Source: Thiotrichaceae bacterium
Lineage (GTDB): Bacteria > Pseudomonadota > Gammaproteobacteria > Thiotrichales > Thiotrichaceae
DNA length: 41,885 bases
Direction of reading: 5' to 3'
NCBI GenBank assembly: GCA_026989145.1
Contig: JALSJU010000118.1
Span: 1 to 41,885 of the forward strand
The position numbers and the translations under genes were made by a program. A model generated the notes under the pieces. That model had not been told where the DNA came from, did no database searches, and was given only the letters and a program-made list of their open reading frames with translations. Numbering within the stretch: the stretch's first letter is position 1; each line of letters begins with the position of its first letter. Of the stretch, positions 30,356-41,592 are shown piece by piece.

Positions 30356-30431
<76 letters not shown>

Positions 30432-30589: not shown

Positions 30590-30707
30590 TTCTATTCACC
30601 TTTACTATTGGCTGAGTAGTCATGTTTTAACAATTAATAAATTCAGGCTTCAACCTTTTATCGCTTTATTCGTGAAAAAAAACTGAAAAAATTGTATATT
30701 TGATCTT

Positions 30708-30777
30708 GGCTGGGTGGCAGAGATTATGCAACGACCTGCAACGTCGCTTACCCTGACTTGATCAGGCCCAGCCTCCA
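30708..30777 (+). tRNA. aberrant tRNA-Cys(GCA)-like RNA
   Basis: This 70-nt cloverleaf has a perfect 7-bp acceptor (GGCTGGG/CCCAGCC), discriminator T and encoded CCA at 30775-30777. The D-arm is GCA/TGC with a 7-nt loop that lacks the GG pair. The anticodon stem has CGAC/GTCG plus an A-C mismatch, with loop CTGCAAC and anticodon GCA at 30738-30740. The T-stem CCTGA/TCAGG is perfect, but its loop is only CTTGA, without TTCRA. The discriminator and anticodon are the main cysteine identity elements. A possible -10 (TATATT) lies at 30695-30700 and a terminator follows. Whether it decodes, acts as a Cys donor or regulates is unknown. Confidence 0.7.
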
Positions 30778-30787
30778 AACACTTAAG

Positions 30788-30816
30788 AAAAGCCTCATAT
30801 TACTGAGGCTTTTTTA
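30788..30816 (+). terminator. terminator after the tRNA-Cys-like RNA
   Basis: AAAAGCCTCA pairs with TGAGGCTTTT around a 6-nt loop, followed by further T residues. It is independent of the tRNA-Gly terminator and shows that the tRNA-Cys-like gene is a separate transcription unit. Confidence 0.88.
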
Positions 30817-30906: not shown

Positions 30907-30980
30907 GGCTGAGTAGCAAAGAGGTTATGCTGCGGTTTGCAAAACCGCCTAGCCCGGTTCGATTCCGGGCTCAGCCTCCA
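30907..30980 (+). tRNA. cysT: tRNA-Cys (anticodon GCA)
   Basis: This is a canonical 74-nt tRNA: acceptor GGCTGAG/CTCAGCC, discriminator T, CCA encoded, anticodon stem GCGGT/ACCGC with loop TTGCAAA (GCA), and T-arm CCCGG-TTCGATT-CCGGG. A possible -10 (TATTAT) is at 30888-30893. It provides the normal cysteine decoder, so the tRNA-like gene upstream is an extra. Confidence 0.96.
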
Positions 30981-31102: not shown

Positions 31103-31189
31103 GCCCAGGTGGCGAAATTGGTAGACGCAAGGGACTTAAAATCCCTCGGTGGCAACACCGTGCCGGTTCGATTCCGGCCCTGGGCACCA
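31103..31189 (+). tRNA. leuZ: tRNA-Leu (anticodon TAA)
   Basis: This is an 87-nt class II tRNA with acceptor GCCCAGG/CCTGGGC, anticodon stem AGGGA/TCCCT, loop CTTAAAA (anticodon TAA), a long variable arm CGGTGGCAACACCG, T-loop TTCGATT and encoded CCA. No strong terminator follows directly. Confidence 0.97.
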
Positions 31190-39716: not shown

Positions 39717-39729
39717 AATAGCTCAGCAA

Positions 39730-39956
39730 AATCTCTCGCAGGAGAAGTTTTCTCGTAATTTATGTGGGTTAATTTAAGTTTAGCTTATTTACTTGAAAAT
39801 GCCGAAGACGCAAAACCGTCCGGAAACGCTCAGGCAAAAGGACTGCGAATAGAATGCTGGCTCTGGAGAGCGAAACAAAAAATGTTTCCACCGAAGGGTT
39901 TAACCTGCTGTTATTAGTATTAATCGTAGGGAATCTCTCAGGTATCAAGGACAGAG
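39730..39956 (+). ncRNA. tandem glycine riboswitch
   Basis: Two glycine aptamers occur in series before gcvT. Aptamer I (about 39730-39847) has AATGCCGAAGACGCAAAACC and CGCTCAGGCAAAAGGACTGCG. Aptamer II (about 39853-39956) has CTCTGGAGAGCG, CCACCGAAGGG and TCTCTCAGGTATCAAGGACAG. These match the conserved core of the class. With the terminator at 39955-40003 it should control gcvTHP in response to glycine, with glycine expected to favour read-through. Confidence 0.92.
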
Positions 39957-40038: not shown

Positions 40039-41139
40039 ATGTCGCAATCGTCACAACAGCCGCAACGAACCCCTTTATATGAGAAGCATCTGGAGTCAGG
40101 TGGTAAAATGGTTGATTTTGCAGGCTGGGAAATGCCAATCAATTACGGCTCGCAAGTTAAAGAGCATAAGCAGGTGCGTGAAGATGCAGGCATGTTTGAT
40201 GTGTCGCACATGGTGGTGTTGGATTTTAAAGGCGCCGAGGTTAAAGCCTTTTTACAAAAACTCTTAGCTAATGATGTGGCGCGCCTAAAAGATGCAGGTA
40301 AGGCGCTTTATAGCGGTATGTTAAATAAGCAGGGCGGTGTTATTGATGATTTAATCGTGTATTACTTAGCGGACGATTTTTACCGTGTGGTGGTGAATGC
40401 TGCAACTCGTGAGAATGATTTGAAGTGGATAAATTCCCAAATGGCAGCGTTTGATTTAACGCTGACAGAGCGTGATGATTTGTCTATGATCGCGGTGCAA
40501 GGACCGAGTGCGCGTGGCAAAGTGGTGTCTTTATTGTCAGAAGCCGATGCAAAGGTTGCCTCAGACCTTAAAATATTTTTTGGTGCTCAGCTGGGTGATC
40601 TTTTTGTGGCGCGTACCGGTTATACCGGTGAAGATGGTTTTGAAATTATTTTACCAAATCAGCAAGTAGCTGACTTTTGGGGGCAATTAATAGATGCGGG
40701 TGTTAAGCCAATTGGGTTAGGTGCACGTGACACTTTACGTCTTGAAGCCGGCATGAATCTATACGGCACTGATATGGATGAAGGTATCTCGCCGTTGCAA
40801 GCGGGCATGGCTTGGACAATCGCCTGGGAGCCAACAGAGAGAGACTTTAATGGTCGTGCAGCCTTAGAAAAAGAAAAAATGGAAGGCTCTAAAAGTAAAT
40901 TGGTTGGACTTGTTTTGGAAGATAAAGGTGTTCTGCGTGGTCATCAAAAAGTTATTACATCGCACGGTGAAGGTGAGATTACTAGTGGCTCTTTTTCACC
41001 TACTATAGGCAAGTCTATCGCGCTCGCACGTATACCTTCTGAAACGCAAGATAATTGTTTTGTTGAAATAAGAGGCAAGCAATTAGCAGTTAAGATTGTT
41101 AAACCGCCGTTTGTTAGAAATGGCAAAGTTTTAATCTAA
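40039..41139 (+). CDS. gcvT: glycine cleavage system T protein (aminomethyltransferase)
   Basis: GcvT transfers the methylene group from lipoyl-bound aminomethyl on GcvH to tetrahydrofolate, releasing ammonia. The sequence opens with [33 protein letters not shown], then MFDVSHM, and further on [13 protein letters not shown] and [18 protein letters not shown], all GcvT signatures. Its 366 residues are normal. An AGAGGAAAT ribosome-binding site precedes the ATG. It is the first gene after the glycine riboswitch and is followed by gcvH and gcvP. Confidence 0.97.
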
Positions 41140-41202
41140 CACTATAAGAAATCTGAACTACACACGCCAATTAATTAATAATGGATAAACTTGGAGAAAA
41201 AT

Positions 41203-41592
41203 ATGAGTAACGAAAACCCGAATGATCTTAAATACACTAAAACCCATGAGTGGGTACGCGATAATGGTGATGGAACAGTAACCGTAGGCATTACCGATCA
41301 CGCCCAAGAGCTATTAGGTGATGTGGTGTATGTCGAATTGCCTGAAGTTGAATCTGAGCTAACGGCTGAAGAGAACTGTGGAGTAATTGAGTCAGTAAAA
41401 GCTGCTTCTGATATGTACGCACCGCTTGAAGGTGAAGTGACAGAAGTCAATGAAGAGCTAGATGGCGAGCCAGAGCTTATTAATAGCGCTGCGTTCGGTG
41501 AAGGTTGGATTTTTAGCATGAAGCTAAAATCAATGGATGATCTTGACGAGCTCATGGATGCTGATGCTTATGAGTCTTTTTGCCAAGAGTAA
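41203..41592 (+). CDS. gcvH: glycine cleavage system H protein
   Basis: GcvH is the lipoyl carrier that shuttles the aminomethyl intermediate between the P, T and L proteins. With the ATG at 41203 (GGAG 6 bp upstream) it has 129 residues. The lipoylated Lys66 lies in CGVIESVKAASDMYAPLEGEV. The longer frame from 41191 starts at a TTG and is not needed. It lies 63 bp downstream of gcvT. Confidence 0.97.
   Translation: MSNENPNDLKYTKTHEWVRDNGDGTVTVGITDHAQELLGDVVYVELPEVESELTAEENCGVIESVKAASDMYAPLEGEVTEVNEELDGEPELINSAAFGEGWIFSMKLKSMDDLDELMDADAYESFCQE

Follow-up and report, generated by a model that had tools for sequence, protein, structure and literature searches.

Why should a bacterium hold, beside an ordinary tRNA-Cys gene, a second RNA with the same anticodon and acceptor stem in which the residues that stabilise the tRNA elbow are gone? 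The question is raised by a 70-nt element in contig JALSJU010000118.1 of a Thiotrichaceae bacterium (GCA_026989145.1). We refer to the whole stretch analysed, 41,885 nt in length, as the window, and give all coordinates on its forward strand. The tRNA-Gly, tRNA-Cys and tRNA-Leu genes of the window belong to a cluster that is common in gammaproteobacteria; the element – hereafter the variant – sits between tRNA-Gly and the canonical tRNA-Cys, 129 nt upstream of the latter gene.

30356-30431 (+): tRNA-Gly(GCC), upstream neighbour of the variant
30708-30777 (+): variant tRNA-Cys(GCA), 70 nt, defined from its sequence, the orthologue alignment and pair counts
30907-30980 (+): canonical tRNA-Cys(GCA), paralogue of the variant, with GG18-19, C56, C51-G63 and A38
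31103-31189 (+): tRNA-Leu(UAA), last gene of the cluster

Form and distribution of the variant

A first-pass annotation credited the variant with a 7-bp acceptor stem, discriminator T (U73), an encoded CCA, a GCA anticodon, a D-loop without GG and a T-loop of 5 nt, all of which were confirmed on the sequence. To these may be added a 3-bp D stem, a 5-bp T stem and a variable loop of 4 nt, giving a 7/5 form. The annotation also held that most of the anticodon stem had been re-paired: the stems are indeed compensated, but this one comprises only 4 bp, pair 27-43 (A.C) being open. Neither ARAGORN nor Rfam RF00005 (membership threshold: a covariance-model score >29 bits) gives a call for the window variant, permissive filters included, and the copy in genome G008 is likewise unreported by RF00005. 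Four orthologues from other species score 49-54.6 bits with the same model, and several are called by ARAGORN as tRNA-Cys(gca).

A BLAST-type search finds a single copy of the variant within its own genome and places it in eight of 12 genomes of Cocleimonas, a genus of sulfur bacteria, each time immediately upstream of canonical tRNA-Cys. The carriers include the isolate Cocleimonas flava DSM 24830, which rules out an artefact of MAG assembly; a phage or plasmid origin was likewise rejected, as IMG/VR and the phage and plasmid records yielded no match. A scan for the anticodon-arm pattern (genome_contigs, one genome per species) returned matches only in Cocleimonas / Thiotrichaceae records, and the pattern is absent from 51 other Thiotrichaceae genomes. 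Elsewhere in the family the covariance model recovered canonical tRNA-Cys and weak matches only (the order-level search returned just one family), and the Gly-Cys spacers of the other family loci examined hold no remnant of the variant. In some other genera of the family, tRNA-Cys is accompanied by two tandem tRNA-Gly(GCC) genes rather than one (L027, L029, L031, L035).

Four Cocleimonas genomes thus call for comment, the more so as the first-pass annotation had pointed to loss of the gene in relatives as a sign of a dying pseudogene. In three (G002, G003, G010) the covariance model found neither the variant nor canonical tRNA-Cys, and because the canonical gene is missing too, the cluster is probably unassembled there. 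The fourth, G006, does lack the gene: rated 100% complete, it has canonical tRNA-Cys and tRNA-Leu and no variant, which has either been lost, or moved and left unassembled, so that in G006 it is dispensable or unassembled. Directly upstream of tRNA-Cys in that genome, replacing tRNA-Gly and the variant, lie a cspA-type gene and an Rfam cspA thermoregulator leader (L026 950-1340 and L046; G006 C474).

A separate feature of the window is a glycine riboswitch aptamer (RF00504, 45 bits) at 39729-39855 (+), one arm of which carries a long insertion. It lies upstream of a gcvT-like ORF (40039-41139) and a gcvH-like ORF (41191-41592), an ordinary arrangement.

Selection on the fold, and the residues kept and lost

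The most prosaic account of such an element is that it is a decaying duplicate. The variant is the lowest-scoring tRNA of the C. flava genome (51.5 bits), it evolves faster than canonical tRNA-Cys (mean pairwise identity 84% versus 91%, with tRNA-Leu at 99%), it is missing in G006, and the lineage of the window genome has suffered a 2-nt deletion in the T-loop. The flanks, however, are saturated – 48% mean pairwise identity upstream, equal to shuffled sequence (48%), and 54% downstream – while the element between them still stands at 84%; moreover, the 70-nt form of the window genome recurs unchanged in a second species, G005, despite diverged flanks. A decaying gene should show broken pairs, and here none is broken: each of the six distinct orthologue sequences forms all 19 stem pairs (100% of stem cells paired), and shuffled and slid controls score lower than the orthologue alignment. 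Four pairs (6-67, 7-66, 50-64 and 53-61, alignment columns) covary with both sides changed, although with six distinct and related sequences the pair numbers should not be over-read. The first-pass claim of selection on structure is thereby upheld, and the random, uncompensated substitutions that it had named as the mark of a pseudogene did not occur in the relatives. We consider decay the most improbable of the explanations weighed here. Chance is excluded by conservation across a genus whose flanks are saturated; judged by these alignments, the 30708-30777 element is a genuine gene under selection, not a tRNA in decay.

In a tree of 23 sequences, variant and canonical genes are split at 98% bootstrap, and the variants branch outside Cocleimonas' own canonical tRNA-Cys sequences; finer branching, based on ~73 sites, is unreliable. 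The second tRNA-Cys may have arisen by a duplication predating the Cocleimonas crown.

A central issue is which parts of the molecule have been retained. GCA and U73 are the main determinants recognised by CysRS, and both are invariant across orthologues, as are A37, CCA, the paired blocks GGCTG/CAGCC and CGAC/GTCG, and G15 with C48. In E. coli, G15:G48 is a CysRS-relevant feature; pair 15-48 of canonical tRNA-Cys varies within the genus, being G-G in the window (30907-30980), A-T in C. flava, A-C in G008 and G-C in G004. Within the variant, conservation is highest in the anticodon arm. U33 is present in seven of the eight carrier genomes (C33 in G008), and pair 27-43 is open in most orthologues.

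What has been lost is as consistent. The pair G19-C56 stabilises the elbow and is a feature recognised by RNase P and by the ribosomal L1 stalk, and A36A37A38 is the MiaA motif. G18G19 and C56 are lost in every orthologue and present in canonical copies; C38 replaces A38 throughout. EF-Tu binding is tuned by T-stem pairs 49-65, 50-64 and 51-63 (PMC8219837): in all orthologues 51-63 is U-A, against C-G in canonical copies of the same genus, while 49-65 remains C-G. The first-pass statement that the elbow contacts are missing holds genus-wide, residues 19 and 56 being unpaired in every orthologue with a 7-nt T-loop. Its 5-nt T-loop does not generalise. The short loop is confined to the window genome and G005, and is a late change common to the window genome and this one sister species; the other orthologues have 7 nt and retain T54 and A58, so a T-loop-like fold probably persists in most of them. 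Given the roles of the residues concerned, the pattern is one of charging identity kept and translation features eroded.

The anticodon arm invites one further explanation. Its stem and positions 32 and 38 were remodelled away from the canonical tRNA and have since stayed nearly fixed, as might be expected if the changed arm protected a spare tRNA-Cys from an anticodon nuclease or a tRNA-cleaving toxin. Such a role would leave both the loss of the elbow and the leaderless promoter (below) unexplained, and we think it very improbable.

Promoter placement and terminator

The first-pass annotation had given the variant a terminator and a plausible -10 of its own. Both are present, and the position of the -10 carries a further prediction that had gone unnoticed.

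30672-30677 (+): weak -35-like hexamer GTGAAA, 17-nt spacer, not recognisably conserved
30695-30700 (+): -10 hexamer TATATT, ending exactly 7 nt before base 1, with the same placement in all orthologues
30788-30815 (+): intrinsic terminator (AAAAGCCTCA / TGAGGCTTTT, then a T run), read from the sequence and unflagged by a simple scan

The -10 block is the sole strongly conserved stretch upstream of the gene. Among orthologues the hexamer reads TATATT, TATAAT or TAATAT and invariably ends 7 nt before base 1; a comparable stem-loop and T run lies 3′ of every orthologue. Since transcription usually starts 7-8 nt past the hexamer, the predicted start falls at -1 or G1, with no leader: transcription of the variant should begin at tRNA base 1 or -1. 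Among 34 C. flava tRNA genes examined, the variant alone has a 5/6 hexamer at that position. Canonical tRNA-Cys has its -10 hexamer 13-17 nt upstream and a GC-rich discriminator (CCGCGC), whereas that of the variant is AT-rich. There is also scattered conservation near -54 (window 30650-30660), with C at -54 and T at -52 in six of seven sequences; as no clear -35 is conserved, this region is possibly an activator site.

RNase P recognises tRNA with the help of the elbow, which is absent here; a transcript without a leader would circumvent this enzyme. The variant would then be transcribed alone from its own promoter and, with base 1 at or next to the start, need little or no RNase P trimming.

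An independent unit with promoter and terminator in all species, and with the anticodon arm as its most conserved part, might also suit a regulatory RNA: a mimic of uncharged tRNA-Cys that, for instance, titrates CysRS or some other protein that binds tRNA, or else a source of fragments. Against this, every orthologue has the encoded CCA, U73 and the full CysRS identity, as charging would predict; we regard a regulatory role as distinctly unlikely.

The main rival to the explanation that we prefer is that CysRS charges the variant and that it decodes UGU/UGC in a minor or condition-specific role, perhaps during slow growth. The invariant GCA and A37, and a U33 lacking from a single carrier, are what a decoder would need; the cloverleaf is retained with compensated stems; and the AT-rich discriminator, set against the canonical CCGCGC, would fit expression in slow growth. 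Translation can tolerate lost elbows, as mitochondrial tRNAs attest, so that precedent exists for this aspect too. But a decoder does not readily account for the concerted loss of G18G19 and C56, the change of A38 to C, the C33 of G008 or the 5-nt T-loop in two species, and both cysteine codons are already read by the canonical tRNA-Cys. We judge it possible, if somewhat unlikely.

Candidate function and known systems

By analogy with known tRNAs, the explanation to which we give roughly an even chance is that the variant is a leaderless tRNA-Cys, chargeable by CysRS, that has become specialised for tasks other than ordinary elongation, furnishing a pool of Cys-tRNA for non-ribosomal or restricted use. 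Charging with cysteine is probable, since the known CysRS determinants (GCA, U73 and the acceptor stem) have been kept; having given up G19-C56, the MiaA motif A36A37A38 and C51-G63 of the EF-Tu-binding T stem, the variant would be a poor elongator. That its most likely use is such a pool is suggested by the tRNA-Gly of Staphylococcus. There is one clear CysRS per genome and no second CysRS in the genomes of the genus, which makes a shared synthetase the simple assumption.

Candidate partners were sought among known users of aminoacyl-tRNA. FemAB (PF02388) was found in 0/12 Cocleimonas genomes (the control matched in 3), PEARL (Lant_dehydr_N, PF04738) in 0/63 with the control itself silent, and CDPS gave zero matches, its control also silent. 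A bolder reading is that the variant is the first non-proteinogenic cysteine tRNA – leaderless, elbow-less, CysRS-charged and EF-Tu-avoiding – serving an unrecognised tRNA-dependent cysteine pathway in sulfur-oxidising gammaproteobacteria; this we put forward tentatively and hold to be rather unlikely.

The combination of retained charging parts and lost ribosome-related parts suggests a specialised job that can be tested. Nature would here offer an example of a tRNA gene that sheds ribosome-related features yet preserves its charging identity, and whose promoter has shifted to a position that makes 5′ processing superfluous; the type strain of the genus is in culture. Two questions come within reach of experiment: by what means a single aminoacyl-tRNA is kept out of translation in a cell, and whether there exists, beyond the pathways already known, a bacterial one that depends on cysteine-tRNA.

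Our literature search found no description of an elbow-less, leaderless tRNA-Cys; its coverage was incomplete and the novelty is therefore provisional. The selC* tRNA-Cys (Mukai 2017), as described in PMC7609411, has an 8/4, tRNA-Sec-like form with an A51a bulge and a long variable arm, carries U73 and usually GCA, and in some groups occurs with selB* and cysS*. On that description it resembles the variant as a second, structurally deviant bacterial tRNA-Cys with U73 and GCA beside a canonical copy; it differs in that the variant has a 7/5 form, a short variable loop and no second CysRS. Identity with selC* is ruled out by this architecture (7/5, 4-nt variable loop), as far as the described features go.

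The open top pair of the anticodon stem in most orthologues recalls the tRNAs with 4-bp anticodon stems, for which decoding work concerned tRNA-Trp(CCA) reading UGA (Fakih 2026; PMC13092985). The tRNA here is a tRNA-Cys, however, and a mismatch at 27-43 occurs in some of the canonical genes as well (G008). Global reassignment of UGA was considered and rejected: TGA still terminates a minority of long ORFs.

For promoter placement the closest parallel is Nanoarchaeum equitans, where a promoter at a fixed distance sets the transcription start at base 1 or -1 of the tRNA (PMC10100707), as predicted for the variant. In that RNase P-free archaeon all tRNAs are leaderless; here it is one tRNA, in a bacterium whose other tRNA genes are without the arrangement.

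For the tRNA itself the closest parallel is the non-proteinogenic tRNA-Gly of Staphylococcus, the substrate of FemXAB. In S. aureus GG18-19 is replaced by UU/CU, T-stem pairs (49-65 and 51-63) are changed, and binding to EF-Tu is weak (PMC4052509). Like it, the variant is an extra isoacceptor that has kept its synthetase identity, has GG18-19 replaced and has pair 51-63 changed. Unlike it, the variant carries cysteine identity in a gammaproteobacterial host without FemAB, leaves 49-65 unchanged, has lost C56 (with a 5-nt T-loop in two genomes), and has a promoter placed for a leaderless transcript.
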